Notes under the pieces: generated by a model
Seen by the model: only the letters and a program-made list of their open reading frames with translations
What the model was told of the DNA's origin: nothing
Database searches by the model: none
Shown: positions 12,981 to 48,390 of the stretch, in pieces
Layout of the letters: the number at the start of each line of letters is the position of its first letter
Numbering within the stretch: position 1 is the first letter of the stretch
Made by a program: the position numbers and the translations under genes
Origin: Tricholoma matsutake
Taxonomy: Eukaryota; Basidiomycota; Agaricomycetes; Agaricales; Tricholomataceae
Direction: 5' to 3'
Length of the DNA: 64,000 bases
Assembly (NCBI GenBank): GCA_026075535.2
Contig: AP026543.1
Location: 8,122,001-8,186,000 of the forward strand

Positions 12981-14404
12981 ACGACCAACTGCTGAGGATC
13001 GGCAGCTCATAGCAGAACGACTGGGCTTGGTGCTGGTAGCAGCCGCCGAGGCTGGTATAGATCGCGACTCGGGGGGCGCTCTGCTCCGGGGAGCAATAGA
13101 CAGAATCTCAGGAGGCAGTAAACGACCCAGGTCGGGCACTGTCACCAATGATCCCAATGTGGACTATCTGGAGGGATGGGATGGGCAACGCCCCCCCCCT
13201 CACAAATCAGCGAGGACTCGAGGCCCGAAAGGGGCTCGACCTCTTCCTAAACCCCCAACAGGGGGTGTTTCTTCATCATGGGGTCGAGGACCACCTCCCC
13301 CCGTGAACTGGTCCACCAGGCCTTCGGGCAGGGGGACCTTTGCTCAGGTTGCTCGTTTCCCCGGGGGGCGAACTCCTAACACATCCATGGATGGTCTTGT
13401 GCATCTAGCCAAGGCCTTCCCTGAACTTCCAACCGACAAGCTGGCGAACATACAGCAGCATGTCGGTCCCTCTAAACCGAAGGTGGCAAAACCTTCACCT
13501 ACCGTACACGGACCGTCGAGACAACAGGTCCTAGTCCACATTCGTCCCCCCCTCGGGGTGGAGACGAATCCCGCTGACTTCCTGGACCATGTCCGGACCA
13601 CTCTTGGACTGCACCACTCCAAATTGGTGGCTCAGTCTGCATCGATGCATGCTGGTAATTTATCAGTAGCTACAGACGTTGTTGCCTCTGAGGAGGACCT
13701 TCGATGTTTCAAGGAAGCTCCCCACAAGGTGTTCCCTTTCACGCTGCAAGTGGACGCAGCGTTACCCACATCCACTTCGTACCTCAAACTGGTCGATGTG
13801 CCATTCATCGCTAACGCCTGATGTCGTCATCGCACACTTGGGAAAGTCTGGAATATCGGATCTCACAGTGCTCCAAGTCCCCCCCCGCGTAGTACGTGAT
13901 TCGAAGATGTTGGATACATGCACCGTCTACCTTAACATCGCTGACTCAGTCAGTGGTGCACGAGCCAAGGCTCTTATCGGTCGGGGCGTCCAATTTGGAC
14001 GCTACATCGCTTATGTTAGGGCTGCCAGGGCAAACCCTGGACTGCCTCTTTGCCAACGGTGCTGGGGTCACCCCACCCCGGCATGCAGAGCTCCACAGAC
14101 CAAATGCCCGATCTGTGCAGGCCCACACTGTAAGGAGCACCATCGTGCCCTTGCAGGGTGTTGTAAGGGAAACGCGAAGGTGAACCCCCCTGTTCCAGCT
14201 ACCCCAGAGGGGGCAGCCTGTCCTCACCCAGCTAGGTGCATCAAGTGCTGGAAAAATCACGCATCTGACGATCGTCGATGCAATTTTTGGCGACATCGCT
14301 TTGACCGTGACTGGATCAAAGCTCGCTATGACGAGGTGAGTGCGAGACGCAACTCTCGCTCCCCTTCTACTTACCATCCCGCAGGATGCGGTGGCCAAAC
14401 GTAA
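12981..14404 (+). pseudogene. LINE ORF1, copy L5, frameshifted
   Basis: Reads PTAEDRQLIAERLGLVLVAA, a basic Pro-rich stretch (PPPHKSARTRGPKGARPLPK), the RRM-like region and zinc knuckles. Near 13815 about 13 bases are missing relative to other copies, between two TAACG repeats, which shifts the frame. The first knuckle also lacks three residues (CQRCWGHPTPAC). The TAA at 14402-14404 abuts the ORF2 ATG. Confidence 0.85.
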
Positions 14405-15996: not shown

Positions 15997-16000
15997 CAGC

Positions 16001-18252: not shown

Positions 18253-18266
18253 ACTATGGGCAAGTT

Positions 18267-22550: not shown

Positions 22551-22565
22551 GTTCAACTCGTATGA

Positions 22566-22801
22566 TCACTGGCCATGCTCCTATAGGGGAGTATCATCAA
22601 CGCTTATCCCTCGACGGGGAATACCAGTGTTGGTGCCTTGGCCCCGAGATACAAACTCGAGACCATTTACTATGCGTCTGCCCCAAGGTGGATTGCAAAG
22701 AAACTCGTGCAAGCCCCGACACTGTCGAAGGCTTCCATGAATTCATGGACAACAACCCAGCTCTAGGGTCGTTCAACTCACTTGTGTGGGATCCAGGATA
22801 G
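22566..22801 (+). pseudogene. LINE ORF2 C-terminus, copy L5
   Basis: Reads ITGHAPIGEYHQRLSLDGEY, the CWCLGPEIQTRDHLLCVC finger and FNSLVWDPG, stop at 22799-22801. Continuation of the ORF2 split by SPE-B4. Confidence 0.85.
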
Positions 22802-23342
22802 GCTGTGCGCGCAGGGCGTATGACCCTCGTCTGGTTCTAGCTAGTGTTATCGGTATGTCAGGGTGGCCATAGGGCGCCAGACGAGTCCGTTAACCCTCAT
22901 AAAGGGGGCCCACCCATGTTCAGGAGCGACTGTCAGGGAGGGGGGACACAAAACTAGGTACTGGTTCAGGGAGGCGCCTGAGCACTTTCAGATCCAATGT
23001 CGGTTATGCGTTACGATGACTTCAGTCGAATACGCTTTCCTTTCTGAGCTGGGAGGCTCACGTTGGGGCGGCAGTTTCCCCTAAATCTTGCACTCATACC
23101 CGTAGGGATTCGGGGAACACAGCATCGTCAAGTCCGAGTTGTCAGTACGCCACCACTGGCAAGTCCGTTTACTCGATAAAGGGGGCCCCCTTAGTGGTCA
23201 TTGCAGCTATCCAGGTGGTTGGTGTGAAGATCAGCAGGAGGAGGACTTGGGCTGGGCGTAGTGTACTTCGTGTGTACGTCTCTACCACGGACTGCGACCG
23301 GGCGCCGGGTTATAAATTTTTGACCCAAAAAAAAAAAAAAAA
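22802..23342 (+). other. LINE 3' untranslated region and poly(A), copy L5
   Basis: About 525 nt without a gene, nearly the same as 7070-7608 and 24822-25357. Ends TTTTTGACCC plus poly(A). A GGGGGCCCCC palindrome lies near 23182. Confidence 0.85.
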
Positions 23343-23676
23343 ACTACTACTAGGGACAAGCTACACTGACTACCTGTTGGAATACACCATCGCTAAAAGG
23401 GGCCGGGTGCCGGTGCCCCCTGATAGCTAGGTCGATGCTCTGGTGGCCGCATTTCACCACCGACTCCTCACCTCCGGTGCTCACTCCTCTGGGGTGTTAT
23501 GACCCGGGTTCAATCTTCTCCCACCAGGCAACAGGATGCGCAGCCTGTTTGCCCCCTCGGAGCATTTGGAGGCTGTATCGGGTGGACCTGGAACTGAGAT
23601 AAGGGGCCATCTGTTATCAACCTTACGCTACGTACTTTGACTGTTATCATCATTTACCTGTGCTAACTCACTCTCA

Positions 23677-24135
23677 ATGCCCAAATGGCTGAACAGAGAC
23701 CAAACCACATGCTGGGGCCTTCACGACCCCACCTTGATTACAGGTGACATCGTTGGTGATGATGCCCAAGACTACGACACCCAGTTCTCACAGAACGAAC
23801 TGGAGGTAGTAGCTGCCCTAGGCAGTTTGAGATCTGTGGGCCGGGGAGGACCTCCCCGACCCTGACGACTACGAGGACTTTCTTGCTAGGCAGGAGGCCC
23901 TCGCTTACACTGCACGCTGCGTATTTCGATCACTAGCATCATATACCAGTACTAACTTGCTCCTGATGCCCAAGTGAACAACCAGAGACGATCGTTCCAA
24001 CGATCCTACGCCTCCAGCAGCTGTCCCAGCTTCCTGTGTGGCGATGCCAACAGCTCTAGCAGAGCTTCAATCTGGGGAACCCTCATTCCCAGTACAGTGC
24101 CGTCATCATCACAGATGGCCGTGCCATTACTCATG
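23677..24135 (+). pseudogene. SPE-C2 ORF remnant
   Basis: MPKWLNRDQTTCWGLHDPTL, with the same one-base frameshift and stop as C1, giving 62 codons; then the same internal deletion and recurring start-like stretch near 23966, and remains of the C-terminal end (LQSGEP). Shared lesions show that the C family spread in this broken form. Confidence 0.75.
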
Positions 24136-24785
24136 TGGGGCATTCCGCTCCACACCCATCACCGCCAGTCCGCTGGCTGCTGTCGGGTTGGTGACAAATG
24201 TCGCTGCCCTTTACATTCTCCCCGCTGCGGGGGGGAAACTGTTATCGAGTGCATGTGCTTGCAGCGCATTTGCTCGAGGGGGGCCTTGGCCCCCTGCCTA
24301 CGACGGTTCCGGTGAATAACCAGGTGAACAACCAGCTGCCACATTACTGTCACACATGCATTACACGGTGATGGTCCACCTCATTCATCTGGGGTGGTCA
24401 ATCCTCATTGGCTGGGAGTATGCGGATGGTTATTGCTCCCGCAAGGGGGGATTTACAGTGAATTAACACGGCCGTGCCTGATCTGACTTTGGTTGGATAT
24501 GTGGCTGGGGGACCGGTTCGCACCAGCAGGTGATCTAATGGCTAGCTTCGGGAGGGGGTCTCCCCCTCCAGATTATTGCCTTTCCTGGCTGAGAGGCCAA
24601 CGTCTGTGGCACTGCCCGCCTAAAGTGGCTAAAACGAGGACCTGGGTAGGATATGGGTGAGGGGAAGCGTAGTTATAGTAGTACCCAAGTTTGTATCCTG
24701 CTCCGCGGACTGCGATCGAGCCCCGCGTTATAAATTGTTGACCCAAAAAAAAAAAAGAAAAAAAAAAAAAAATAACCCTGTTTTA

Positions 24786-25951: not shown

Positions 25952-27575
25952 GGCGATGAGAGCCTTTTTTTTTTTTTTTTTTTGGATCAGAATTTATAAC
26001 GCGGGGCTCGAACGCAGTCCGCGGAGCAGGGTACAAACTTGGGTACTACTCTATCTATGCGTTCCCCTCGCCCATCTCCCACTCAGGTCCCCGTTTTAGC
26101 CACTTTAGGCGGGCAGTGCCACAGGCGTTGGCCTCTCAGCCAGGAAAGGCAATAATCTGGAGGGGGAGCCCCCCCCTCCCGAAGTTAGCCATTAGATCGC
26201 CTGCTGGAGCAAACGGTCCCCCAGCCACATGTCTGACCAAGGCCAGACCAGGCGCAGCAGTGTTAATTCACTGTAAATCCCCCCTTGCGGGAGGAATAAC
26301 CGTCTGCGTTTTTCCAGCCAACGAGGACTGACCACCCCAGACGAATGAGGTGGACCATCACCGTGTTGTGCACGAGTGACAGTAACAAGGCGGGTGGTTG
26401 TTCACCTGGTTATTCACTGTGACCGCCGTAAGTAGGGGGCCGAGACCCCCCTCGAGCAAATGCGCACATGTGCATGCACTCGATGACATCGTCCCCCCCA
26501 CAGTGGGGGGAAGGTATAGGGAAGCAACATCATGTCACCATCCTGATAGTGGCCACCAGTTACTTGGTGGCCAGGCTCCTTGACTTGTTACAACCACCAT
26601 AAATAGTGGTAAACACCTCTGCTCAACGTTGCATGCGACGTCGACACTTCAATTTTTGTCCGATTTTCGATCGGACTTTGCCATCATGAACGCTCTCAGC
26701 GTCTCCAGGCCTGCCCTGATTTGCTAAGAGATCCGTCCATCCGATCTTCGGGGATGTCTCGGTCATTGTTTCCAACAGTGACTGCTATCTGTCTCGTTCC
26801 CCTTGGCTTCGAGGATCCTGGCTAGGTGAGTGATGTCTATGAAAGAGTAGTCTGGGTCCCTATGGGGGCTTAGAGTGGGTGTGGGATGCCTGCTTCAACG
26901 CTCGCCCAAGTAGAAGCGCTCGTTTAGCTGGGGGAGGTCTGGCTTAGGGGGAAGGACGTTCTTACTGGACTGCTGGCCGTCTGGGAGGCTCCCAGCCTCC
27001 ATGCTCTGTGAGTTTCTATTACTAGAGACATGCTACACTGACTACCTGTTGGAATACACCATCGTTAAAAGGGGCCGGGTGATGGTGCCCCCTGACAGCT
27101 AGGTCGACGCTCTGGTGGCCGCTACTCACCACCAACCCTCTACCTCCGGTGCTCACTCTTCTAGGGTGTTATGATCTGGGTTCAGTCTTCTCCCACTGGG
27201 TGACAGGATGTGCGGCCTGTCCCCCCCTCGGAGCATTTGGAGGCAGTATCGGGTGGACCCGGAATAGAGATAAGGGACCAACCGTTATCGATGGCACGCT
27301 ACGTATCTTGATTTCTACTATCACCTACTAGCATTAACTTCCCCTCTCAATGCCTAAATGGCAAACCAGAGCCCAAACACCACGCTGGGGTCTACACGAC
27401 CCCTCCCTGATTACGGGCGACATCTATGACGATGGCGTCCAAGACTACGACACCTGGTACGATCACGATGATCCGGATGTAGCTACTGCCCTACAGGCAG
27501 TTAGAGATCTATGGGCTGGAGAGGACCTCTCCGACCCTGAGGATGACGAGGACTCTCTTGCTATGCAAGAGGCCC

Positions 27576-29822
27576 TTTTTTTTTTTTTTTTTTGGGTCAA
27601 AAATTTATAACGCAGGGCTCGAACGCAGTCCACAGAGCAGGGTACAAACTTGGGTACTACTCTATCTACGCGTTCCCCTCGCCCATCTCCCACCCAGGTC
27701 CCCGTTTTAGCCACTTTAGGTGGGCGGTGCCACGGACATTGGCCTCTCAGCCAGGAAAGGCAATAATCTGGAGGGGGAGCCCCCCCCTCCCGAAGTTAGC
27801 CATTAGATTGCCCGCTGGAGCAAACGGTCCCCCAGCCACATATCCAACCAAGGTCAGATCAGGCGTGGCCATGTTAATTCACTGTAAATCCCCCCTTGCG
27901 GGAGGAATAACCGTCTGCATGTTCCCAGCCAACGAGGGTTGACCACCCCAGGCGAATGAGGTGGACCATCACTGTGCCTGCGCACGAGTGACGAAAATGA
28001 GGTAGCTGGTTATTCACCTGGTTACTCACTGGAACTACCGTAGGCAGGGGGCCAAGGCCCCCCTCGAGCAAGTGCCAACACACGCACATGCTCGATGACA
28101 ACGTCCCCCCCGCAGCGGGGAGAAGGTGTAGGGTAACGGCTAAGCGTCATTGTCCCAATAACGGCCACCACTCCTGTGGTGGGCGTATATGTGGAGGGGT
28201 GGTTCCCCTTTTTTAATAGCGACGCTGCTGTGCTCGAGGACCTCGAGGACGATGGCGACGTGCTGGGGACGAGGGTTCCCCAGATTGAGGCTCTGATTGA
28301 GCTGCTACCATCGCCGCATAGGAAGCTCGAAAGGCTGCCGGTGACATGAGATCGAGAGGTGATGCGGCAGCTGCTAGTTCTGCCGACATCGTCTCAGACA
28401 ATCGCCATGTGGCTGTGAATGATTCCCAAGCCATCTGACGCCATACGTTCCTCTCCGTAAGAGGGACAGCAGACACTCGGACGGTACCGACGAAAATCGT
28501 CATTGCCTCCAGTAGATGTAGAAAGCCATGAGAGGTGGCTGTTAATTCCGCCCTCTCATCTCTCGACAACGGAGGCTCATCCTCCACCAACTCTGGGATG
28601 GCGGATGAACCCGGTGAAGTGGGGAGGGTCGGCACAGATTGCTCCTGCTGCCCCTCTGGATAAAGGAGCTCGGCGATGCCGACCTCCCGATTGTTGTTGG
28701 CCTCGAGCCCAAGCTCGAGAGCCAGATTACTCGTATCGTTGGCCACCTGCTGTGACCACAAGACGCGGTTTATAGTCTCCTGCGAGGCTAGCTCGGTGAG
28801 ACCTGGGATGAATTCGACGTCTCCGCCGATGGCAGAGTCATCAACTTCTGATAGGCCGGAGGAGTTGTCCTCCGACCATAGATTGTGGAGCTGGTTGTCC
28901 ACATCGGAGTCCCATCCACCCAAAGAGATGTGACCGAACTCCGGGAGATAGTCATCGTCGAAGTCTGCGACGTCGAAATTGGAGTGTAAGAGGGGGTCGC
29001 TGTGCGCCACCCGGTGTTGAATTCGCGCTCTACGGTTTGCAGAGGGCATTGAGGATGATTTAGCAAAGTAGATGACGGTAGAAGTCAAGATACGTAGCGT
29101 GATAACGATAACAGATGGTCCCTTATCTTGATTCCGGATCCACCCGATATAGCCTCCAATCGCTCCGAGGGGACAGACAAGCCGCACATCCTGCTGTCGA
29201 GTGGGAGAAGATCGAACCCGGGTCATACCACCCCAAAGGAGTGAGCACCGGAGGTGAGAAGTTGGTGGTGAATAGCGGCCACCCGAGCGTCGACCTAGCC
29301 ATCAGGGGGCACCATCACCCGGCCCCTTTTAACGATGGTGTATTCCAATGGGTAGTCAGTGTAGCATGTCTCTAGTAGTAGAAACTCACAAAGCATGGAG
29401 GCTGGAAGCCCACCAGGCGACCAGCAGTCCAGTGAGAGTGTCTCTCCTCCTAAGCCAGACCTCCCCCAACTAAGCGAATGCGACGACATGGGCGAGCGTT
29501 GAAGTAGGCATCCCACACCCACTCTAAGACCCCAAAGGGACCCAGACTACTCTTTCATTGACAGCACTCACCTAGCCAGGATCCTCGAAGCCCAGGAGAC
29601 CGAGACAGATAGCAGACACTGTCAGAAACAGTGCCCGAGGCATCCACAGAGATCGGATGGACGGATCCCTTAGCAAATCAGGCTACGCCTGGAGACGCCG
29701 AGAGCGTTCGTGATGGTGAAATCCGATCGAAAATCGGACGAGAATTGCAGTGTCGACGTCGCATGCAACGTTGAGCAGAGGTGTTTACCACTATTTATGG
29801 TGGTTGTAACAAGTCAAGGAGC
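27576..29822 (-). mobile_element. SPE-B2, inserted in reverse in SPE-A2nd
   Basis: Poly(T) 27576-27593; target duplication ATGCAAGAGGCCC at 27563-27575 and 29833-29845, with ten extra bases (29823-29832) at the 5' side. 2247 bp, type I 5' cassette, very similar to B1. Confidence 0.92.
28213..29049 (-). CDS. SPE-B protein, intact (278 aa)
   Basis: ATG at 29049-29047 (MPSANRRARIQHRVAHSD) to TAA at 28213. Acidic regions around residues 25-75, GLTELASQETINRVL, Gln/Pro hinge, IPELVEDEPPLSRDERAELT, helical conserved block, and C-terminus RRHRPRGPRAQQRRY. Full length, unlike B1, which has the final CGA-to-TGA stop. No known catalytic motif seen. Confidence 0.7.
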   Translation of the reverse strand: MPSANRRARIQHRVAHSDPLLHSNFDVADFDDDYLPEFGHISLGGWDSDVDNQLHNLWSEDNSSGLSEVDDSAIGGDVEFIPGLTELASQETINRVLWSQQVANDTSNLALELGLEANNNREVGIAELLYPEGQQEQSVPTLPTSPGSSAIPELVEDEPPLSRDERAELTATSHGFLHLLEAMTIFVGTVRVSAVPLTERNVWRQMAWESFTATWRLSETMSAELAAAASPLDLMSPAAFRASYAAMVAAQSEPQSGEPSSPARRHRPRGPRAQQRRY

Positions 29823-31126
29823 GATGGTTACAATGCAAGAGGCCCTCAATTACACTGAGAGCAGCCCCAAGCTGGCCTCGAGGCAAACGATAGACCGTGT
29901 GCTGTGGGCGCAGGACATCCATATCGCACATAAATGATGGACTCGCAGTCTCAAATGCGAGGACATGTACACTCATGAGCTCGGCATTGCCGAGCTCTTC
30001 TATCTGGAGGCATCCCCTGCCCCGTTACCACCTTTGCCCCCCATCCCTGAGTTGGTGGAGGACAAAGTGCCGTTATCTGTGAATGAGAGGCTGGAAATCA
30101 AAGCCACCTCTCATGCCATGCTACACCAACTCGACGCGATGACCATGTTCATTGGTACCGTCCATACATCCGCCGTTCCCCCTGCAGAGAGGAACGCATG
30201 GCGCCAAATGGCCTGGGAGTTATTCATGACCACCTGGTGACTGTCTGAGACGATGTCGGCGGAACTAGCAGCCGTTCCGACACCTCTCGATCTCACGTCT
30301 CCGGCAGCCTTCTGGGCTGCCTACGCGGCGATGCACACTGCTCAACCAGAGCCTCAATCTGGGGAACCCTCGTCCCCAGCACAGCGCCGTCATCCTCGAG
30401 GTCCTCGTGGACAGCAGCGCCACACCTAGTACAGGGGCCTATCCCCCCCTACACTCATGGCCACCAAGTACCAACGGGTGGCCATTATCGTGATGGTGAC
30501 ATGGTGGCGCCTCTCTATACTTTCCCCCCACTGCGGGGGGGACGATGTCATTGAGTGCATGCACATGTGTGCATTTGCTCAAGGGGGGCCTGGGCCCCCT
30601 ACTTACGGCGGTCACAGTGAATAACCAGGTGAACAACCACCCGCCTTGTTACTGTCACTCGTGCACAACACGGTGATGGTCCACCTCATTCGTCTGGGGT
30701 GGTCAATCCTCGTTGGCTGGAAAAACGCAAACGGTTATTCCTCCCACAAGGGGGGATTTACGGTGAATTAACACTGCTGCGCCTGGTCTGGCCTTGGTCG
30801 GATATGTGGCTGGGGGACCGTTTGCTCCAGCGGGCAATCTAATGGCTAACTTCGGGAGGGGGGGGCACCCCCTCCAGATTATTGCCTTTCCTGGCTGAGA
30901 GGCCAACGTCTGTGACACTGCCCACCTAAAGTGGCTAAAACGGGGACCTGAGTGGGAGATGGGCGAGGGGAACGCGTAGATAAAGTAGTACCCAAGTGTG
31001 TACCCTGCTCCGCAGACTGCGTTCGAGCCCTGCGTTATAAATTCTGATCCAAAAAAAAAAAAAAGTTACTTGGTGGCCGTGAACGTAGAGGGGGATAGAC
31101 CCCTGTACTAGTTGCGGCGCTGCTGT

Positions 31127-31918
31127 CTACGAGGACCTCGAGGACAACGGCGCCGTGCTGGGGACGAGGGTTCCCCAGATTGAGGGCTCTGATTGAGCAG
31201 TGTGCACCGCCGCGTAGGAAGCCCGGAAAGCTGCCGGAGACGTGAGATCGAGAGGTGTCGGAATGGCTGCTAGTTCCACTGACATCGTCTCAGACAGTCG
31301 CCAGGTGGTCGTGAATAACTCCCAGGCCATTTGGCACCATGCGTTCCTCTCTGCAGGGGGAACGGCGGATGTACGGACGGTACCAACGAACATGGTCATC
31401 GCGTCGAGTTGGTGTAGCATGGCATGAGAGGTGGCTTTGATTTCCAGCCTCTCATTCACAGATAACGGCACTTCATCCTCCACCAGCTCAGGGATGGGGG
31501 GCAAAGGCGGTAACGGGGCAGGGGATGCCTCCGGATAGAAGAGATCAGCAATGCTGAGCTCCTGAGTGTACATGTCCTCGCGTTCGAGACTGCGAGTCCA
31601 TCGTTTATGTGCGACATGGACATCCTGCGCCCACAGCACTCGTTCGATCGTTTGCCTCGAGGCCAGCTTGGGGCTGCTCTCGGCGTAATTGAGGGCCTCT
31701 TGCATAGCAAGAGAGTCCTCGTCATCCTCAGGGTCGGAGAGGTCCTCTCCAGCCCATAGATCTCTAACTGCCCGTAGGGCAGTAGCTACACCCGGATCGT
31801 CGTGATCGTACCGGGTGTCGTAGTCTTGGACGCCATCGTCATAGATGTCGCCCATAATCAGGGAGGGGTTGTGTAGACCCCAACGTGGTGTTTGGTCTCT
31901 AGTTCGCCGTTTAGGCAT
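31127..31918 (-). pseudogene. SPE-A3 ORF, tail frameshifted (263 codons)
   Basis: ATG at 31918-31916 (MPKRRTRDQTPRWGLHNP). Conserved through AWELFTTTWRLSETMSVELA and AAFRASYAA. An extra G near 31188 (GGGCTCTG for GGCTCTG) shifts the frame, so the basic tail is replaced by SIWGTLVPSTAPLSSRSS. Otherwise open. Confidence 0.75.
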
Positions 31919-32692
31919 TGAGAGGAAGTTAATGCTTGTAGATGATGGTAAAAATCGAAATACGTAGCGTGCCATCGATAATGGGTGATCCCTTATCTCT
32001 ATTCCGGGTCCACCCGATACTGCCTCCGAACGCTCCGAGGGGGGAACAGGCCGCACATCCTGTAGCCCGGTGGGAGAAGATTGAACCCGGGTCATAACAC
32101 CCCAGAGGAGTGAGCACCGGAGGAAGAGGGATAGTGGTGAGACGCAGCCACCGAGGTGTAGGCCTAGCCGCTAGGGGGCACCATCGCCCGGCCCCTTTTA
32201 ACGATGGTGTATTCCAGCGGGTAGTCAGTGTAGCATGTCTCTAGTAATAGAAACTCACAGAGCATGGAGGCTGGAAGCCTCCCAGACGACCAGCAGTCCA
32301 GTGATAATGTCCCTCCTCCCTAAGCCAGACCTCCCCCACCTAGACGAGTGTGACGACTTGGGTGAGCGTTGAAGCAGGCATCCCACACCCACTCTAAGCC
32401 CCCTGAGGGACCTAGACTACTCTTTCATAGACAACACTCACCTAGTCAGGATCCTCGAAGCCCAGGAGAACGAGACGAATAGCAGCCATTGTCAAAAACA
32501 ATGACTGGGGCATCCACGGAGATCGGATGGACGGATCTCTTAGCAAATCAGGGTAGGCCTGGAGACGCCGAGAGTGTTCGCGATGGTGAAATCCGATTGA
32601 ATATCGGACCGAAATTGGAGTCTCGACGTTGCTACCAACATCGAGCAGGAGTGTTTACCACTGTTTATGGTGGTTGTAACAAATCAAGGAGC

Positions 32693-34015: not shown

Positions 34016-36240
34016 GCTCCTTGACTTGTTACAACCACCATAAATAGTGGTAAACACCTCTGCTCAACGTTGCATGCGACGTCGACACTTCAATTTTCGT
34101 CCGATTTTCAATCGGATTTCGCCATCACGAACGCTCTCGGCGTCTCCAGGCCTGGCCTGATTTGCTAAGAGATCCGTCCATCGGATCTCCAGGGATGTCT
34201 CGGTCATTGTTTCCAACAGTGACTGCTATCTGTCTCGTTCCCCTTGGCTTTGAGGATCCTGGCTAGGTGAGTGATGTCTATGAAAGAGTAGTCTGGGTCC
34301 CTATGGGGGCTTAGAGTGGGTGTGGGATGCCTGCTTCAATGCTCGCCCAAGTAGAAGCGCTCGTTTAGCTGGGGGAGGTCTGGCTTAGGGGGAAGGACGT
34401 TCTTACTGGACTGCTGGCTGTCTGGGAGGCTCCCAGCCTCCATGCTCTGTGAGTTTCTATTACTAGAGACATGCTACACTGACTACCTGTTGGAATACAC
34501 CATCGTTAAAAGGGGCCGGGCGATGGTGCCCCCTGACAGCTAGGTCGACGCTCTGGTGGCCGCTACTCACCACCAACCCTCTACCTCCGGTGCTCACTCT
34601 TCTAGGGTGCTATGACCCGGGTTCAATCTTCTCCCACTGGGTGACAGGATGTGCGGCATGTCCCCCCCTCGGAGCATTCGGAGGCAGTATCGGGTGGACC
34701 CAGAATAGAGATAAGGGACCAACTGTTATCGATGACACGCTACGTATCTTGATTTCTACTATCACCTACTAGCATTAACTTCCCCTCTCAATGCCTAAAC
34801 GGCGAACCAGAGCCCAAACACCACGCTGGGGTCTACACGACCCCTCCCTGATTACGGGCGACATCTACGACGATGGCGTCCAAGACTACGACACCCGGTA
34901 CGATCAGGACGATCCGGATGTAGCTACTGCCCTACGGGCAGTTAGAGATCTATGGGCTGGAGAAGACCTCTCCGACCCTGAGGATGACAAGGACTCTCTT
35001 GCTATGCAAGAGGCCCTCAGTTATGCCGAGAGCAGCCCCAAGCTGGCCTCGAGGCAAACGATAGACCGTGTGCTGTGGGCGCAGGACGTCCATGTCGCAC
35101 ATAAACAATGGACTCGCAGTCTCGAACGTGAGGACATATATTCACAGGAGCTCGGCATGGCCGAGCTCTTCTATCCGGAGGCATCCCCTGCCCCAGTACC
35201 ACCTTTGCCCCCCATCCCTGAGTTGGTGGAGGACGAAGTGCCGTTATCCGTGAATGAGAGGCTGGAAATCGAGGCCACCTCTCATGCCATGCTACACCAA
35301 CTCGACGCGATGACCATGTTCGTTGGTACCATCCGTACATCCGCCGTTCCCCCTGCAGAGAGGAACGCATGGCGCCAAATGGCCTGGGAGTTATTCACGA
35401 CCACCTGGCGACTGTCTGAGACAATGTCGGCGGAACTAGCAGCCGTTCTGACACCTCTCGACCTCACGTCTCCGGCAGCCTTCCGGGCTTTCTACGTGGC
35501 GGTGCACATTGCTCAATCAGAGCCTCAATCTGGGGAACCCTCATCCCCAGCACGGCGCCGTCGTCCTCGAGGTCCTCGTGGACAGCAGCGCCACACCTAG
35601 TACAGGGGTCTATCCCCCTCTACATTCACGGTCACCAAGTAACTGGTGGCCACTATTGGGATGGTGACATTGTGTTGCTTCCCTATACCTTCCCCCCACT
35701 GCGGGGGGGACGATGTCATTGAGTGCATGCACATGGGTGCATTTGCTCGAGGGGGGTCTCGGCCCCCTACTTACGGCGGTCACGGTGAATAACCAGGTGA
35801 ACAACCACCCGCCTTGTTACTGTCACTCGTGCACAACACAGTGATGGTCCACCTCATTCGTCTGGGGTGGTCAATCCTCGTTGGCTGGAAAAATGCAGAC
35901 GGTTATTCCTCCCACAAGGGGGGATTTACGGTGAATTAACACTGCTGCGCCTGGTCTGGCCTCGGTCGGACATGTGGCTGGGGGACCGTTTGCTCCAGGG
36001 GGCGATCTAATGGCTAACTTCGGGAGGGGGGGGCGCCCCCTCCAGATTATTGCCTTTCCTGGCTGAGAGGCCAACGTCTGTGGCACTGCCCGCCTAAAGT
36101 GGCTAAAACGGGGACCTGAGTGGGAGATGGGCGAGGGGAACGCGTAGATAAAGTAGTACCCAAGTTTGTACCCTGCTCCGCAGACTGCGTTCGAGCCCCG
36201 CGTTATAAATTCTGATCCAAAAAAAAAAAAAAAAAAAAAA
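34016..36240 (+). mobile_element. SPE-A5, complete
   Basis: From GCTCC at 34016 (preceded by TCAAC, 34011-34015) to TTCTGATCC and poly(A) 36219-36240. Leader 775 nt with type I cassette, ORF 34791-35600, trailer about 618 nt. Left flank is a C ORF scrap and right flank reverse LINE RNase H, so the flanks do not match and recombination is inferred. Confidence 0.9.
34791..35600 (+). CDS. SPE-A protein, intact (269 aa)
   Basis: Best A-family copy. Basic start MPKRRTRAQTPRWGLHDP; GDIYDDGVQDYDTRYDQDDP; acidic GEDLSDPEDDKDS at about residues 55-70; Pro-rich FYPEASPAPVPPLPPIPELV around 125-140; VEDEVPLSVNERLEIEATSH; block NAWRQMAWELFTTTWRLSE; LDLTSPAAFRAF; basic end ARRRRPRGPRGQQRHT. The C-terminal half aligns with the B protein, where most third bases differ but residues do not. 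I do not recognise a known family; RNA binding through the Arg-rich tail is a guess. Confidence 0.72.
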   Translation: MPKRRTRAQTPRWGLHDPSLITGDIYDDGVQDYDTRYDQDDPDVATALRAVRDLWAGEDLSDPEDDKDSLAMQEALSYAESSPKLASRQTIDRVLWAQDVHVAHKQWTRSLEREDIYSQELGMAELFYPEASPAPVPPLPPIPELVEDEVPLSVNERLEIEATSHAMLHQLDAMTMFVGTIRTSAVPPAERNAWRQMAWELFTTTWRLSETMSAELAAVLTPLDLTSPAAFRAFYVAVHIAQSEPQSGEPSSPARRRRPRGPRGQQRHT

Positions 36241-39081
36241 GGGGTCGAATTCATCGCCTGGTACCAGGGCCAGAGCTGCAGCCGAAACGACAGATGGACC
36301 TTGCAAGGTGAGTGTGTCGAGCATGTTCCCTCCCCAGAGTCCTAGCTCATGAGAGTGGGTGGTGCCTACGTGATTGGGCCCTAAGATTGCTCTTAGAGGG
36401 TGAGATGGAGCCAATAGGGAGGTTCTGAACACTCCTCTATCGACCAGACGACGCAGTAACAGCTGCATAGGCAGCAGTCCGGCGATACTTTCCAGGCCAC
36501 TGATTGGGGTGGTTCTGAATGCACCGAGGATCCAGCAAGCAGCGATGGACTGCACCTGGGCCAGCGTTTTGATGACACCTTTGACGCGAGCGCCTTTGAA
36601 GTGCCAGAGTCTCAATCCGTATGTCATGATGGGTACGACACACGAATGGTACAGGAGGCGTTTCTGCATAGGGGTTAACCCTCTCACAGAATTGCCGAGC
36701 ATGCCCATCGCCCTAGCAGTGGTGAGGGCTTTGGTGGAATAGAACCGCGTATGCTCCTTGAAGGAGAGTTTGCGGTCGAAGAAAAATCCGAGGTACCTCC
36801 AGGTAACCTTGGGTTTGAGAGGGGTGTTGCCCGTGTAGGGGGCAAAGCCAAGATCAATAGGCAAGGGGGTGAACCTCCTCGCCCTTGAGAAGTGAAATAT
36901 TTCAGACTTGTTGTGTTTGAGCACAAGTCCGAGGGAGGTGAATGCCTGGAAGATCCAGCCATACGCTGTTTTAAGGAGGGGGATGTTATCCTCCAACTGT
37001 GGAGAGCGGGCGATGAGGGTACCATCGTCCACGTAGGACATGAGATCGACATCTCTGCCGATGTCGCTTCTTCTGAAGAGCTTCATGATGGGCATCAGGT
37101 ATAGCGCCGACAGGACAGGGGACAAGGCAGAACCTTGACCCACTCCCACATCTGCTGCGAAGGGGCCAGATGAGAAAGCGTTCCATTTGTAGGTCATCTT
37201 GCGACCGACCAAATATGAACGGAAGAAGTTCACAACTTGCGCAGGGAATCCTGACCGAGAGATAATCTCCAATAGAACCTGGTGGTTCAAGGAGGGGAAG
37301 AACTGAGTGATGTCGAAGGCGACAACACTCGTTTTGAGCCCTTTGGCCCATCCCGCTCTGACCAGGTGGGTAAGGTAGATTCCTGCATCCTCAGTGGAAC
37401 GCTGGGCGACACCTCCGAACTGATTTTGCTCGAAGGCCTCGTGTGCGACCCCGTCGAACTGAAGTCGCCTAGACAACATCTTTTCGACTAATTTGCCCAA
37501 GGTATTCAGGAGCACAATGGTCCTGAATGACTTAGGGGTAGAATAATTAGGTTTCCTGGGTTTTGGGATGATAACCGACAGGGACTCCTTGAAATGGGCT
37601 GGCCAATGGCCAGCAGTGATGCACGCCTCAGCAATGCGGGTAATGAGCCCTGCCACTTCTGGGTTGCTACACCAGTGTTTAAGGTGCGACCACGTAACAT
37701 GATCGGGACCTGGAGCGGAACGGGAAGAACACGCATTTAGCGCTTCTTTCAATTCCGTAACGGAAAACGGGATCCAGGCCCTTTCAGGCGCCGGATCAAG
37801 TTCATCGAGGATGCTCAGATCGACTACTCGATCTGAGGCAGCATTGTAGGACCCATCAAGGGCATCCCAAAGAGAGTCCAGGTCGTTGCAGGGTTCTCCC
37901 CGATAGGAGATAGCCTCATACGATGGGAGGTTACGTTGATGCGTCCAGGACATCAAGTCTCAGGGTCGTCTGTTCATCATAGCCACTTCTTGGATACGGT
38001 CATCAAAGAAGTCGCGCTTAGCATGTCGCATGACTTTCCTGTAATGCTTCCAGTCCTCCCCATCGCGGGAAGATCTGTAAGCATCCAGAGCACCACTGCA
38101 TTCATCTGTCCACCATCCTTTGGACGATTTGCCGAGGCGAGATTCCTTGGCATGGCTTTCCCATGCCTTGTTTAAAATTGTTGATATCGCCGAGACGACA
38201 TCATCGATTTCTGCCGATGTATCTCCGTGCCAGTCTAGCCATGGAGTTAAAGCGGAGGAGACAGCATCCTGATAGGATGCTTCCTCCTCAGATCCTTTCT
38301 TGATGGACCACTTGGTGACCGGGACCAAAGATCCCGGGCCCGGTAGTACTAATGTCAGGGGAGCGCGGTCAGACATCCCCCTGGCTTCAGGAACGATCTC
38401 ACAGTACAGTACAAATCTAAGATCTGTAGGTACGAACATCAGGTCGATCACCATGGGGTGAAGGCCCTGTTGTGGGGGAAAATGGGTAGGGCCCTCCGCT
38501 ACTGGTAGGGCTCTCGTCAGGCCTAGTGCCATAGCCGTTTCCACTAAGTGGTCGGCATGGATTGAGTGCTCAGGCCCCTGGGGGTCCCAGGAGGCGTGTC
38601 TCACGTTAAAATCACCACACATAAAGTGTAGGCGTGGGATCATCATGACGTTCTCGAACAAGAGCGTGATGACTGAGTGTTGGCTGTCCGAGTAAACGTT
38701 AGTGAGTAGCATGACGTCCTCCCCTATTCCCAGTGAAAAGAGGAGGATGTCACGATCGTTGATCAGATCTCGTCTGAGACCAGGTCTTAGATTAGCGATG
38801 CTGTTCACAAAATAGATGGCAACGCGTGGAGGGGAGTCAATTCCCGATGGGCGCACCAAGGTTCCCCAATTGGGGCTCATCGGTGCGCCTATAACTTCTT
38901 CCCCTTCCCTGTTGTAGGCAGAGGGGGCGTGTCTTATTAGTCGCCAAGGAGGCTCTTGAATCAAAAGCAAATCATAGTCATCTACGAAATCTGCCAGTAG
39001 AGAGTCCATGTAGCCCCAGTTTCTGTTTACATTTTGGCTAAATACGCGTAGCTGAGGGGTAGATCTAAGTCTGTCCCTCAT
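36241..39081 (-). pseudogene. LINE ORF2 endonuclease-RT, copy L7
   Basis: ATG at 39081-39079 directly after the ORF1 stop. Endonuclease motifs QNVNRNWGYMD, LIQEPPW and GDFNVRHASWDP are present, but the SDH motif reads SDRAPL (CGC at 38367-38365), losing the catalytic His. TGA at 37962-37960 replaces Trp (RRPW). The RT is otherwise open with FDITQFFPSLNH, VGVGQGSALSP and YVDD. The RNase H and 3' end are missing; the frame runs into SPE-A5 poly(A). Confidence 0.88.
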
Positions 39082-41005
39082 TTACGTTCGGCCACCACGT
39101 CCTGCGGGATGGTGAGCAGGAGGGGAGCGAGAATTGCATTTCGCACTCACCTCGTCATAGCGAGCTTTGATCCAGTCACGGTCAAAGCGATGTCGCCAGA
39201 AATTGCATCGACGATCGTCGGATGCGTGGTTCTTCCGGCAATTCATGCACCTAGCCGGGTGAGGACAGGCTGCCCCCTCTGGGGTAGCTGGGATAGGGGG
39301 GTTCACCTTGGCGTTTCCCTTGCAACACCCCGCTAGGGCACGATGGTGCTCCTTGCAGTGTGGGCCTGCACAGATCGGACATTTCGACTGTGGAGCTCTG
39401 CATGCTGGGGTGGGGTGGCCCCACTTCCAGCACCGTTGGCATAGCGGGAGCCCAGGGTTTGCCCTGGCTGCCCTAACATAGGCGACATAGCGTCCAAATT
39501 GGACACCCCGTCCGATGAGAGCTTTCGCTCGTGCGCCACTGACCGAGTCAGCGACGTTGAGGTAGACGGTGCACATGTCCGACATTCTCGAATCACGGAC
39601 CACCCGTGGAGGGACTTGCAGAACGGTGAGGTCGGATATGCCTGACTTCCCCAGGTGTGCTATGACGACATCCAGCGTAATGGCCTTGTCGTTCGCAATG
39701 TAGGGCACGTCTACCAACTTGAGGTAAGACGTGGACGTCGGTAACGCTGCATCGATTTGGAGCGCATAGGGGAAGGCCTTGTGGGCCGCCTCCTTGAAGC
39801 ATCGTAGGTCCTTGTCCGAGGCCACTATGTCAGTTGCCACCGAGAGGTTCCCGGCATGCATGGAAGCAGACTGTGCCACTAGCTTAGAGTGGTGTAGTCC
39901 TAAGGTCATCCGGACATGGTCCAGGAAGTCAGCAGGGTTCGTCCCCTTCTCGAGGGGGGGTCGAACGTGAACAAGAACCTGTCTTCACGACGGTCCGTGG
40001 ACGGTGGGTGAAGGCTTTGCAGCCTTGGGCCTGGATGGACCGACGTGCTGCTGGATGTCAGCTAGCTTGTCGGTTGGAAGCTCAGGGAAGGCCTTGGCTA
40101 GTTGCACAAGGCCATCCATGGATGTGTTAGGTGCTCGCCCCCCCAGGGAAGCGAGCGACCTGAGCGAATGTCCCCTTGCCTGAAGGCTTGGTCGACATGT
40201 TCACGGGGGGAGGAGGTCCTCTGCCCCATGACGAAGAAGTGCCCCCTGTCGGGGGCTTAGGAAGAGGTCAAGCCCCTTTCGGGCCTCGTGTCCTCGCAGA
40301 TTTGTGAGGGGGGGGGCGTGGCCCATCCCATCCCTCCAGGTGCTCCGTCCTTGGGACGTCGTTGGGGTCAGTAGTAGCAGGACGCTTGCCTGCACTGCCA
40401 GCCCTGTCAATAGCTCTTCGGAGGGTCGTATTCCCCGAGGCGTGGTGAAATCCAACCGTGGTCGCTGCATACAGCACCGCCCCCAGTTGTTCTGCGATTT
40501 CCTGCCGTTGTTCAGCAGTGGGTCGTAGGGCTCCAGTCCTGTTTAGAACAGTGATGAATCCCTGAGCGTATTCCCCGAGGTCGTGGGCGAAGGTGGTCGG
40601 ACCGGCCCAATCGTCGTCCGCATCGCTTGCCATCACCGTGTCTTGGATCACGGGCTCGGGGTTGGGTGTCACAGCTTCGTTACCCCACCGAGAGGCAGGC
40701 GTGGAAGGAGTGGTAGGAGGTGCAGGGGACGCTGTGGCCCGCCTGGGAGATAATGTCGGCACGCTGAATCGCTGTGCACGCGGTGTGATCGTTCCGGCCC
40801 CATACGGGGACGGAGTTGGAGAGCTTCTTTGGGACCGATGAGGGCCCACCGAAGGTGCTATCTGTGAGGATCTACGGCCCCCAGAGGGCCATAGAGAATC
40901 AATGGGATCGTCGCCAGGAGTTCTGGGCGTACCGGCTCTGGAAGGGTTCCCCACGTCCATTGCTTCGCCTGATCTCCCCCTTGTTCTAGATACTGAATCA
41001 GACAT
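39082..41005 (-). pseudogene. LINE ORF1, only copy with its N-terminus, copy L7
   Basis: ATG at 41005-41003 (MSDSVSRTRGRSGEAMDVGN). Ser/Pro-rich N-terminus of about 120 residues, an acidic DADDDW patch, helical ALRPTAEQRQEIAEQLGAVL, basic RPPPHKSARTRGPKGA, RRM-like region (SYLKLVDVPYIAND, VYLNVADSVSGARAKALIGR), then the knuckle cluster. Lesions: TGA at 40270-40268 (CGA elsewhere), an extra G in the G-run near 40143, and a TGA near 39983. Expected intact length about 640 aa. Confidence 0.85.
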
Positions 41006-41129
41006 GCGCTGGTAAGATGCTATATAGACCGGATCGCTTGGATTGTAGACGGATTGAGCTGCAGAGAGTGAAAATGGTGTCGACAAAAATTTCTGTGGCT
41101 GTGCACGTCGCGGTAACAAGTCAAGAAGC
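41006..41129 (-). promoter_or_regulatory. LINE 5' untranslated region and 5' terminus, copy L7
   Basis: 124 nt between the element start and the ORF1 ATG. It begins GCTTCTTGACTTGTTAC, matching the first 17 nt of the SPEs with one difference, then diverges (CGCGACGTGCAC instead of AACCACC). Non-LTR elements generally carry an internal promoter downstream of their 5' end; none can be pinpointed here. This is the only LINE 5' end in the window. Confidence 0.6.
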
Positions 41130-41989: not shown

Positions 41990-42195
41990 GCTCCTTGACT
42001 TGTTACAACCACCATAAATAGTGGTAAACACCTCTGCTCAACGTTGCACGCAACGTCGACACTTCAATTTTGGTCCGATTTTTGATCGGATTTCACCATC
42101 ACGAACGCTCTCGGCGTCTCCAGGCCTGCCCTGATTTGCTAAGAGATCCGTCCATCTGATCTCTGTGGATGCCCCAGTCACTGTTTTTGACAGTG
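41990..42195 (+). ncRNA. Structured 5' cassette, type I (exemplar from SPE-B5)
   Basis: Four predicted hairpins: ACCAC/GTGGT (42008-42012 with 42021-42025); ACGTTG/CAACGT (42041-42046 with 42051-42056, loop CACG); TCCGAT/ATCGGA (42074-42079 with 42085-42090); CACTGT/ACAGTG (42179-42184 with 42190-42195). Between copies the last becomes CATTGT/ACAATG (near 1920, 12716 and 60003), keeping the pairing. Not recognised as an HDV-like or hammerhead ribozyme. A role in translation, packaging or integration is open. Confidence 0.6.
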
Positions 42196-42765
42196 TCTGC
42201 TATTCGTCTCGTTCTCCTGGGCTTCGAGGATCCTGGTTAGGTGAGTGCTGGCAATGAAAGAGTAGTCTGGGCCCCTATGGGGGCTTAGAGTGGGTGTGGG
42301 ATGCCTACTTCAATGCTCGCCCAAGTCGTCGCATTCGTTTAGCTGGGGGAGGTCTGGTTCAGGAGGAGGGACATATTCACTGGATTGTGGGTCGTCTGGG
42401 AGGCTTCCTACCTCCATGCTGTGTGAGTTTCTACATCTAGAGACCTGCTACACTGACTACCTATTGGAATACACCATCGTTAAAAGGGGCCGGGCGATGG
42501 TGCCCCCTGGTGGCTAGGTCGACGCTCGGGTGGCCGCTATTCACCACCGACTCTTTACCTCCGGCACTCACACCCTTGAGGTGTTTGGAACCGGGTTCAA
42601 TCGTCCCTCCCAATCGGCAGCAGGATTTGCGGCCTGCCTGCCCCCTCGGAGCATCTGGAGGCTGTGTCGGGTGGACCCGGAATTGAGATAAGGGACCGTC
42701 TGTTATCGTTATCACGCTACGTATCTTGACTTCTACCATCATCTACTTGTGCTAAATCATCCTCA

Positions 42766-43608
42766 ATGCCCTCTGCAAACCGTAGAGCGCGAACTCGACA
42801 CCAGGCGGCTCATGGCGACCCCCTCCTATACACAAACACCGACTTCGCAGACTTCGACGACAACTACCTCCCAGAGTTCGGACACGTCTCCCTGAGCGGA
42901 TGGGACTCTGATGTGGCTAACCAGTTCCACAATCTTTGGGCGGAGGATGACTCCTCTGACCTGCCAGACGACGATGACGGCTCTGCCACCGGCGGAGACG
43001 TCGAATTCATTCCGGGTCTCACCGAGCTAGCCTCGCAGGAGACGATAAACCGCTTCTTGGCATCACAAGTGATAGCCGATGAGGTGCATGATCTGGCTCT
43101 CGAGCTTGGGCTCGAGGCCAACAACAATCAAGAGCTCGGCATTGCCGAGCTCCTCTATCCAGAGGGGCAGCAGGAGCAATCTGCGCCGCCCCTCCCCACA
43201 TCACCTGGTTCATCCGCCATCCCAGAGTTGGTGGAGGATGAGCCTCCGTTGTCGAGAGATGAGAGGGTGGACATAACGTCCACCTCTCATGGCTTTCTAC
43301 ATTTACTGGAGGCTATGACGATTTTTGTCGGTACCGTCCGAGTATCCGCCGTTCCGCTCATAGAGAGGAATGCATGGCGCCAGATGGCATGGGAACTATT
43401 CACAACCACCTGGCGATTGTCCGAGCCAATGTCGGCAGAACTAGCAGCTGCCGGATTGCCTCTCGATCTCACGTCACTGGCAGCCTTCAGGGCTTCCTAC
43501 GCGGCTAGGCAGGCAGCTCATGCAGAGCTCCATCATGAGGAACCCTCGTCCTCATCACGATGCCGTCATCCTCAAGGTCCTCGGAGACAGCCACGCCACA
43601 ACCTATAG
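42766..43608 (+). CDS. SPE-B protein, intact (280 aa)
   Basis: MPSANRRARTRHQAAHGDPL; acidic FADFDDNYLPEFGH and DDSSDLPDDDDGS in the first 75 residues; GLTELASQETINRFLASQ; ELGLEANNNQELGIAELLYP; Pro hinge; IPELVEDEPPLSRDERVDIT; HGFLHLLEAMTIFVGTVRVS; NAWRQMAWELFTTTWRLSE; basic C-terminus. Start as in all B copies, 776 nt from the element 5' end. Function unknown; no nuclease, RT or zinc finger. Confidence 0.72.
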   Translation: MPSANRRARTRHQAAHGDPLLYTNTDFADFDDNYLPEFGHVSLSGWDSDVANQFHNLWAEDDSSDLPDDDDGSATGGDVEFIPGLTELASQETINRFLASQVIADEVHDLALELGLEANNNQELGIAELLYPEGQQEQSAPPLPTSPGSSAIPELVEDEPPLSRDERVDITSTSHGFLHLLEAMTIFVGTVRVSAVPLIERNAWRQMAWELFTTTWRLSEPMSAELAAAGLPLDLTSLAAFRASYAARQAAHAELHHEEPSSSSRCRHPQGPRRQPRHNL

Positions 43609-44260
43609 GGGAACACCCCTCCACAACCACGCCCACCAAATAATTGGTGGCCGATATCGGGATAGTGACATTTTGTCGCTTCCCTCCACCTTCCCCCCGC
43701 TGCGGGGGGGACATTGTCATCGAGTGCATGCACATGTCGGCATTTGCTCAAAGGGGGGTCTCGGCCCCCCTGCCTACGGTAGTTCCGGTGAATAACCAGG
43801 TGAACAACCAGCTACCACATCTCTGTCACTCGTGCGCAAACATGGTGATGGTCCACCCCATTCGTCTGGGGTGGTCAATCCTCGCTGGCTGGAAGTAGGC
43901 TATCGGTTATTCCTCCCGCAAGGGGGGATTTACGGTGAATTGACACCACTGCGCCTGATCTGACTTCGGTTGGATATGTGGCCGGGGGACCGGTTGGTAC
44001 CAGTGGGCAACCTAATGGCTAGCTTCGGGAGGGGGAGGCTTCCCCTCCAGATTATTGCCTTTCCTGGCTGAGAGGCCAACGTCTGTGGCACTGCCCGCCT
44101 AAAGTGGCTAAAACGAGGACCTGGGTGGGAGATGGGCGAGGGGAACGCGTAGATATAGTAGTACCCTAGTTTGTACCCTGCTCCGCGGACTGCGATCGAG
44201 CCCCGCGTTATAAATTGTTGACCCAAAAAAAAAAAAAAAAAAAAAGAGCCTCCCTGGCGA

Positions 44261-46429: not shown

Positions 46430-48390
46430 TTGTTTTTTTTTGGGGTCAACAATTTATAATGCGGGGCTCGATCGCAGTCCGCGGGTCAAGATACAAACAA
46501 GGTACTACTAAGACTACGCATTCCCTATGTCCGCATCCCACACCAGGTCCCTTGCAGAAGCCACGTTACGGCGGGCGTACCAGCGTTGTCCTCTCAGACA
46601 GGAAAGGCAATAATCTGTAGGGGAGGGGCCCCCCCTACAAAGGCTAGCCATTAGTTCGCCGTCTGGTGCTATCTCGGTCCCCCCGGCCACATATCCGACC
46701 GAAGTCAGATCAGGCGCAAGCAGTGTCAATTCACCGTAAGTCCTCCCTTGCGGGAAGAGTAACCGTCTTTCACCAGACAATGAGGATTGACCACCCCAGG
46801 TGAGTGAGGTGGACCATCACTGTGTCCACGCACAAGTGACAGTGACGAGGCAGCTGGTTATTCACTGGAACTGCCGTAGCTGGTTATTCACCGGAGCTAC
46901 TGTAGGTAGGGGGTCGAGGCCCCCCCCTCAAGCAAATGCTACTCTGAGCATGCACTCAGTGACATCATCCCCCCCGCAGTGGGGAGAAGGTAAAGGGTGG
47001 CGACATAATGTCACCATCCCGACAACAGCCCTGGTGGGCGGTGAAGAGAAGGGGGGGTCCCCTTCTTCAAGCTCGGCATGGTCGTTGGCGGGGGCCACGA
47101 GGACGTCGACGCCGTTCCGGGGACAAGGGTTCCTCAGTTGGAGGCTCTGCCGCTGGTGGAGCAGACTGAGCCGCCTGCATCGCTGCATAGGAAGCCTGGA
47201 AGGCTGCCGGAGACGTAAGGTCGAGGGGAGCTCAGCGATACCAAGCTCCTGTGAATACATATCCTCCTTAGGGAGGCTACGAGCCCAGTGCTTGTGTTCG
47301 ACGTCGACACCAAGTGCCCATCGTACACGATCAATCATTTTCCTCGAGGAGAGCCTAGGCCCCCCCTCGGCGAAAGTGAGAGCCTCCTGCATGGCAAGAG
47401 AGTCATCGTCATCATCATCGTTAGGGTTGGAGAGGTCTTCCCCGGCCCATAGATCTCTAGCTGCCCTGAAAGCAGCTGCTACCTCTGATTCGTCTTGGAT
47501 GAACCGGGTGTCGTAGTCTTGGACGCCATCATCAAAGATGTCGCCCGTGATCAAAACGGGGTCGCGTAGACCCCGATGTGGTGGTTGGTCTCTGGTTCGC
47601 CGTTTGGGCATCGAGAGTGTGTGTGTTAGTGCTAGTAGATGATGGTAGGAATCAAAATACGCAGCGTGGAATCGATAACAACTGGTCCCTTATCTATATT
47701 CCGGGTCCACCCGATACGGCCTCCGAACGCTCCGAGGGGGCGAGCAAGCCGCGCATCCTGCTGCCTAGTGGGAGAAGATTGAACCCGGGTCATGCCACCC
47801 TAGGAGAGTGAGCACCGGAGGTAGAGGGATGGTGGTGAAAAGCGGCCACCAAGGTGTAGGCCTAGCCGCTAGGGGGCACCATCGCCCGGCCCCTTTTAAC
47901 AATGGTGTATTCCAGCGGGTAGTCAGTATAGCATGTCTCTAGTAGTAGAAACTCACAGAGCATGGAGGCTGGAAGCCTCCCAGACGACCAGCAGTCCAGT
48001 GATAATGTCCCTCCTCCCTAAGCCAGACCTCCCCCACCTAGACGAGTGTGACGACTTGGGCGAGCGTTGAAGCAGGCATCCCACACCCACTCTAAGCCCC
48101 CAGAGGGACCTAGACTACTCTTTCATAGACAACACTCACCTAGTCAGGATCCTCGAAGCCCAGGAGAACGAGATGAATAGCAGCCATTGTCAAAAACAAT
48201 GACCGGGGCATCCACGGAGATCGGATGGACGGATCTCTTAGCAAATCAGGGCACGCCTGGAGACGCCGAGAGCGTTCGTGATGGTGAAATCCGATCGAAA
48301 ATCGGACGAAAATTGAAGTGTCGACGTTGCTTGCAACGTTGAGCAGAGGTGTTTACCACTATTTATGGTGGTTGTAACAAGTCAAGGAGC
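46430..48390 (-). mobile_element. SPE-A2-2, inserted in reverse in L8
   Basis: Short interrupted poly(T) (with one G), 5' end at 48390. Target duplication CCGTAAGCTCTCCTT at 46415-46429 and 48395-48409, four extra bases GTTG between. About 1.96 kb because part of the ORF is deleted. Type I cassette. Confidence 0.92.
46928..47611 (-). pseudogene. SPE-A2-2 ORF, internal deletion
   Basis: MPKRRTRDQPPHRGLRDP from 47611 through YSQELGIAEL; then about 300 bases are missing, joined at a GCTCC repeat, and the frame is lost, so the conserved C-terminal block is gone. The remaining codons are out of frame. Confidence 0.8.

Follow-up and report, generated by a model that had tools for sequence, protein, structure and literature searches.

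The window, that is the whole stretch of Tricholoma matsutake DNA analyzed here (64,000 nucleotides, C6:8122001-8186000, GC 53-55%), consists almost entirely of two types of element. Matches to our references cover 63,140 of its 64,000 bases (98.7%): short elements of 1.8-2.3 kb, termed SPE, account for 36.0 kb and a LINE for 27.3 kb. The annotated copies are as follows.

34016..36240, + strand: SPE family A, the featured full-length copy (locus L009) with leader, ORF, 3' UTR and a 22-nt poly(A); no target duplication detected
34016..34032, + strand: 17-nt 5' end of the featured copy, 16 of 17 positions identical to the LINE
34791..35600, + strand: ORF of the featured copy, 269 aa, open; between-family dN/dS below 1
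36156..36216, + strand: 3' block common to the featured copy and the LINE 3' UTR; possible 5-bp stem, then TTATAAA..GATCC, then poly(A)
36260..41129, - strand: LINE copy with intact 5' end and broken reading frames; 5' 17-mer at 41113-41129
49835..52045, - strand: SPE family A; ORF with one stop; no duplication detected
31064..32692, - strand: SPE family A, partial
62766..64000, - strand: SPE family A, truncated at the window edge
26575..27576, + strand: SPE family A, 5' part, interrupted by the B' copy at 27587-29822; remainder at 29833-31057
29833..31057, + strand: SPE family A, 3' part of the copy begun at 26575
4357..6621, - strand: SPE family A2; open ORF at 5015-5842 (275 aa); 15-bp duplication
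46436..48390, - strand: SPE family A2; interrupted ORF
59811..62070, + strand: SPE family A2; open ORF at 60593-61423 (276 aa)
41990..44244, + strand: SPE family B; open ORF at 42766-43608 (280 aa), 97% identical to Q9C4A5; 17-bp duplication
16001..18253, + strand: SPE family B within a LINE copy; 17-bp duplication with 1 mismatch
20322..22549, - strand: SPE family B within the same LINE copy as 16001..18253; 16-bp duplication
54495..56726, - strand: SPE family B; ORF frameshifted; no duplication detected
7942..10177, + strand: SPE family B'; no duplication detected
27587..29822, - strand: SPE family B'; ORF open; 19-bp duplication with 2 mismatches
1731..3588, + strand: SPE family C; leader and 3' end as in the others, ORF mostly deleted; no duplication detected
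12526..12979, + strand: SPE family C, 5' part, interrupted by the LINE at 12981..23343; remainder from 23344
12981..23343, + strand: 5'-truncated LINE within the SPE-C copy, itself host to two SPE-B insertions; 3' end at 23326
23344..24751, + strand: SPE family C, 3' part of the copy begun at 12526

Elements of families A, A2, B and B' measure 2.19-2.26 kb and are comprised of a leader of 773-782 nt, an ORF of 269-280 aa, a 3' UTR of about 600 nt and a poly(A). Family C (1.84 kb) keeps the leader and the 3' end, has lost most of the ORF and contains no long ORF. In 12 copies of the window, the ORF retains its start and some of its C-terminal half; it is open as far as the family stop in five of these and ends a few codons short of it in a sixth. 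The segments 7942-11189 and 26575-29822 contain the same B' insertion at the same position of family A in opposite orientations, with 96.9% identity over 3249 nt, and this segment has probably been duplicated and inverted. A prediction from 67 SPE 5' ends places three small hairpins in the first 110 nt of the leader; some positions change in pairs (CG/TG/TA), a pattern that CpG decay could mimic. A scan of the window with Rfam found no tRNA, 5S or 7SL match up to an E-value of 1 and no ribozyme family; its sole match was one miRNA, under its cutoff.

The initial annotation had described SPE as devoid of a reverse transcriptase (RT) and an endonuclease and as encoding a protein of about 270-280 aa, and both statements hold. 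No Pfam match to either enzyme was found in four SPE proteins and 12 alignment members, and the proteins scanned thus lack the RT and endonuclease that an autonomous LINE encodes. The protein is basic at its N-terminus, includes an acidic stretch and a conserved central region, and has a tail rich in arginine. It matches nothing in Pfam better than E 0.13 and nothing in PDB better than E 1, and its AlphaFold model has a mean pLDDT of 40.5; the label 'CzcA-like' has no Pfam support. A protein database search found ten relatives, nine of them T. matsutake records and the tenth an ENA protein; none of the ten is fused to a LINE. A helix pattern seen by eye suggested homology to the ORF1 protein of the LINE; this was rejected at hhalign probabilities of 0.2% and 1.2%, obtained from shallow alignments with which a very distant link is compatible. 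By eye, P0002 and similar proteins have the look of a mosaic of B' and A.

The SPE protein is maintained by purifying selection. Between families, dN/dS amounts to 0.24-0.27 (A-A2), 0.27-0.37 (A2-B/B'), 0.41-0.43 (A-B/B') and 0.33-0.34 (B-B'), with codon-bootstrap 95% upper bounds of 0.37-0.61. Within families, the value is 0.27 for two A2 copies and 0.90 for two B' copies, the latter being members of the inverted duplication. Over the C-terminal 29 codons, which offer few sites, dN/dS between families reaches 1.1 in A-B and B-B'. Genome-wide, 121 of the 143 ORFs scored (the best 143 of 1970 candidates, a biased set) contain no internal stop. In the other 22 every stop is TGA, the outcome that CpG loss in CGA arginine codons would give. 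Divergence between families is 10-15% in the leaders and 13-25% in the 3' UTRs, at a dS of 0.36-1.65; the divergence of leaders and 3' UTRs is low relative to dS, so that the flanks are either under constraint or exchanged from one family to another.

The resident LINE, which we provisionally class with the APE-type, I-like/Tad-like LINEs, is about 6.44 kb long in L069 and L070, two copies that include both ends. These consist of a 5' UTR of 124 nt, an ORF1 of 640 aa, an RVT_1 region with a weak RNase H-like RVT_3 match, a 3' UTR of 525 nt and a poly(A). ORF1 is open in L069, shows cysteine-rich knuckles by eye and has no Pfam match; its relatives are 12 proteins at 39-61% identity among JGI and ENA entries. 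The RT region lies in an open frame of 1289 codons in many of the 146 genome matches scored (of 1277 candidates), and a Pfam match to Exo_endo_phos_2 was found in a LINE copy of the window. Between their ends SPE and LINE have little in common: blastn with 7-base words gave a best E of 0.15, save for a weak block in the 3' UTR (E 0.012).

A common 5' end of SPE and LINE, as proposed in the initial annotation, is confirmed: 16 of 17 nt are identical, and the window contains 19 SPE-type sites (at most 3 mismatches) besides the LINE 5' end at 41129 on the minus strand. The 17-mer GCTYCTTGACTTGTTAC has 1119 exact matches in the genome, its reversed control none; a 24-mer specific to SPE occurs 895 times and its LINE counterpart 43 times (controls 0). 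A second LINE 5' subtype, GCTTCTTGTCTTSTTAC, has 175 exact occurrences, and among the 100 matches listed none runs on as SPE. By exact counts SPE-type 5' ends therefore exceed those of the LINE 895 to 218, roughly 4 to 1. Since the larger subtype GCTTCTTGTCTTSTTAC diverges from the SPE 17-mer, SPE is closest to the smaller one; that 175 of the 218 LINE 5' ends differ from SPE at 2-3 of 17 positions counts against a partnership with this LINE. So does the shortness of the similarity, which is limited to 17-22 nt (p = 0.05 for the next 100 nt). With a LINE 5' UTR profile, SPE 5' ends score E 0.13-0.16, against 1.3 for the best reversed control; in the opposite direction, a profile built from 63 SPE leaders found no match in the LINE. 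Homology of the 5' UTRs beyond 17-22 nt was rejected on account of this p-value and of the leader profile. The true 5' end apparently lies about 4 nt outward of the 17-mer, which is preceded in many copies by C-[A/G]-N-C. The tetranucleotide between target duplication and 17-mer is CATC in 28 of 37 LINE 5' ends and variable in SPE, with CATC (11), CAAC (9), CGAC (6) and CGTC (5) being the commonest of 77. It varies even between close SPE relatives; a cap, a shift of the start site and untemplated addition are candidate causes.

The 3' ends are alike as well, and here the initial annotation was correct as to the sharing and too short as to its extent, given as about 40 nt. In all five SPE references, a profile of 17 LINE 3' UTRs matched the terminal 62-90 nt, at E 3.6e-7 to 5.5e-12; in four of the five it also matched a weaker, collinear second block (E 0.006-0.026). 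The best reversed-sequence control reached E 0.43. The reciprocal search with an SPE 3' UTR profile found the LINE at E 4.6e-6 and 0.016. The pattern TTATAAA..GAYCC+A8 occurs 1664 times genome-wide (control 0), and in the terminal consensus of SPE and LINE it is preceded by a possible 5-bp stem, CGCGG/CCGCG, which RNAalifold did not select. The earlier wording that SPE 'borrow' both ends implies which element was donor and which recipient, a point that the data leave unset. In two metagenome relatives of LINE ORF1 (P0019 and P0020), poly(F)-QQFIT ends look by eye like an inserted antisense LINE/SPE tail; given this resemblance, tails of this type probably also occur in other fungi.

Of 39 end-to-end copies from the window and sampled loci, 30 lie between target duplications (SPE 28 of 36, LINE 2 of 3); these SPE copies thus combine poly(A) and target site duplication, the marks of a non-LTR retrotransposition product. 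The duplications measure 14-19 bp, some with 1-2 mismatches, where shuffled partners gave a mean of 0.04 and a maximum of 1. Because 26 of the 39 copies come from loci chosen by top protein score, the set leans towards young copies; in the window, the fraction is five of nine. The statement that most insertions carry duplications stands; for the featured copy at 34016-36240 none was detected. The nine of 39 copies without a detectable duplication, this one included, count against copying by a LINE. The ORF-poor family C copy L073 is flanked by a perfect 15-bp duplication.

The initial annotation named an autonomous LINE carrying the SPE leader, ORF and trailer as the case that would contradict it, and none was found in a sample of 61 SPE-type 5' ends, each followed by 1.4 kb or more of sequence. 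The best match is SPE for 58 of the 61 and LINE for three. In two of the 58 (L051 and window position 1731), LINE sequence follows further downstream, at the LINE's own start or past the SPE end. One of the three exceptions, L060, is a nested LINE starting from its position 1. At window position 12526, an SPE-LINE chimera was rejected in favor of a nested, 5'-truncated LINE: the two flanks of the SPE-C copy around it overlap by about 13 bp. Only at L004 (L004 and L076, G000:C1:7138677-7142900) does SPE 1-258 run straight into LINE 4643-6442; a single poly(A) follows, and there is no SPE ORF. A simple nested insertion was rejected there, as the remainder of that SPE is absent downstream. L004 may have arisen by template switching, which one RT that copies both RNAs would produce, and as a possible chimera it speaks for LINE copying; later rearrangement is the alternative. 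Its LINE part is only 82.6% identical, and it has no visible target duplication, which counts against LINE copying. Conversely, three of 31 LINE-type 5' ends lead into SPE (L056, L058 and L063); these were rejected as joins, each nested SPE having its own 5' end.

The chromosomes of T. matsutake, according to excerpts of PMC10211490, each contain a single GC-rich, LINE-rich and LTR-poor region, two on chromosome 1, proposed as centromeres, and the window looks like a part of such a region. We scanned the telomere-to-telomere assembly (161,040,721 bases, 13 contigs). All 143 SPE ORFs scored (the best 143 of 1970 candidates) lie inside a single span per chromosome, two on C1; the spans derived from this set sum to 4.9 Mb, 3% of the genome. 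Among the 146 LINE RT matches scored, of 1277 candidates, 144 are located within 0.13 Mb of these spans. The two others are C10:5453545 and C12:9893861; the former (L075) is a 5'-truncated LINE in surroundings of 40-48% GC. One of 100 SPE leader pattern matches listed, C3:4488715, is about 0.23 Mb away from its neighbors, and on C1 some matches to variant tails are found 0.3-0.6 Mb below its second span. Likewise below the second span of chromosome 1, L074 (G000:C1:15552150-15555150) consists of SPE-like and LINE copies that are 74-87% identical to the references and have a variant tail, which suggests older layers at the span margin. Within these LINE- and SPE-rich putative centromeres, copies of both elements nest in one another.

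The marY2N element of T. matsutake was reportedly described as 'LINE-like' (Murata et al. 2001). Over 277 aa, the SPE family B protein is 97% identical to Q9C4A5, deposited as a 'CzcA-like protein' of T. matsutake, which we infer to be the product of marY2N (AB047280). On this basis SPE is most likely the marY2N family, an assignment that rests on protein name and species rather than on the sequence of AB047280. A reading of the element as previously unreported is not supported, and the family is probably known already. In excerpts of PMC10627285, marY2N is termed a LINE, mRNA-like with poly(A), and is enriched in the presumed centromeres of T. bakamatsutake. It thus resembles SPE in species of origin, poly(A) end and presumed centromeric location, yet is described there as a LINE in its own right, with no mention in these excerpts of an absent RT, of ends in common with a separate LINE or of a family structure (PMC10627285). 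In the literature searched, in part as excerpts, we found neither SPE nor marY2N described as non-autonomous and partnered with a separate LINE; within these limits, a protein-coding non-autonomous partner that has both ends in common with a separate LINE appears to be new.

Partners of LINEs are usually non-coding or cut-down LINE copies. SINEs, like SPE, have poly(A) and target duplications, and HAL1 (half-LINE-1) elements lack ORF2. SPE also resembles SINEs with LINE-like tails, whose 3' part usually comes from the partner LINE according to excerpts of PMC7245038. It departs from the SINE type, which has a small-RNA head and no coding capacity, as it is about 2 kb long, encodes a protein and has no tRNA, 5S or 7SL match. 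The HAL1 insertions of mammals are described, likewise in excerpts, as LINE-derived with ORF1 coding sequence (PMC4859970), whereas the SPE protein has no detectable relation to the ORF1 of the LINE. A parallel is found in trypanosomes, where excerpts of PMC4748587 describe a 5' terminal sequence, Pr77, common to short element and LINE (NARTc/L1Tc and RIME/ingi), with NARTc and RIME being truncated versions of their LINE. SPE resembles these in having both ends in common with a LINE, even if its 5' share is short. NARTc and RIME are however cut-down LINEs, whereas the SPE body and protein show no detectable similarity to the LINE and the body is no internal-deletion product of it. SPE and LINE would work like the NARTc/L1Tc pair, but SPE is not a member of that class.

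Taken as a whole, the sequence evidence points to SPE as a 1.8-2.3 kb element, very likely of the marY2N family, that has a protein under purifying selection, no RT and both termini in common with a 6.4-kb LINE, and that is probably copied in trans by the RT of this LINE. Mobilization in trans by the resident LINE is the simplest account of the common 3' block, the poly(A), the duplications and the location. Transcription would begin at or just upstream of the common 5' end, and the RNA would be translated into the protein of 269-280 aa, which may coat or escort its own RNA. The LINE ORF2 protein, with endonuclease, RT and a weak RNase H-like match, would recognize the common 3' block before the poly(A) and prime reverse transcription at the nicked target. 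An intact SPE ORF is probably not needed in cis, as family C has lost most of it, keeps both ends and includes one copy with a 15-bp duplication. As to the role of the protein, RNA packaging is our first guess and targeting the boldest.

It is unlikely that SPE are deletion derivatives of another autonomous LINE, extinct or rare, with the SPE leader and the SPE protein as its first ORF. Common descent of this kind fits the weak collinear 3' UTR similarity beyond the terminal block, and the SPE leaders are long and conserved. In the sample, however, 58 of 61 SPE-type 5' ends run on as SPE and none of the three exceptions joins an SPE ORF to a LINE; the sampled L069 and L070 have an ORF1 of their own at that position, and the ten relatives of the SPE protein include none that is fused to a LINE. 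Highly improbable is a captured host mRNA whose ORF survives by chance and is unused. Although the protein has neither a known domain nor a usable structure model and dN/dS is 0.90 for the two B' copies, values between families are well below 1 (bootstrap upper bounds below 0.62), and no host parent occurs among the ten relatives found, in a search that could miss a diverged one. That the LINE in turn uses the SPE protein in trans, for instance to keep the copying complex on centromeric chromatin, we regard as quite improbable. The co-occurrence of SPE and LINE in the same spans, the conserved protein with basic ends and an acidic part between them, and the excess of SPE-type 5' ends (895 to 218, exact counts) fit such a two-component system, but the LINE comes with an ORF1 and an ORF2 of its own, and co-location is expected from common LINE machinery alone.

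For mobilization in trans by the resident LINE, as we prefer it, a hitchhiker with a conserved protein gene of its own, unrelated to the LINE, raises the question why the protein is needed; packaging in cis, competition and targeting are testable options. The picture of the presumed centromeres of matsutake as LINE-rich is altered as well, since SPE sequence exceeds LINE sequence in the window. A bolder and unlikely extension is that SPE is one half of a two-component centromeric retrotransposon whose protein tethers the copying complexes of both LINE and SPE to centromeric chromatin. If true, a LINE and its protein-coding partner would jointly build the centromeres of matsutake.
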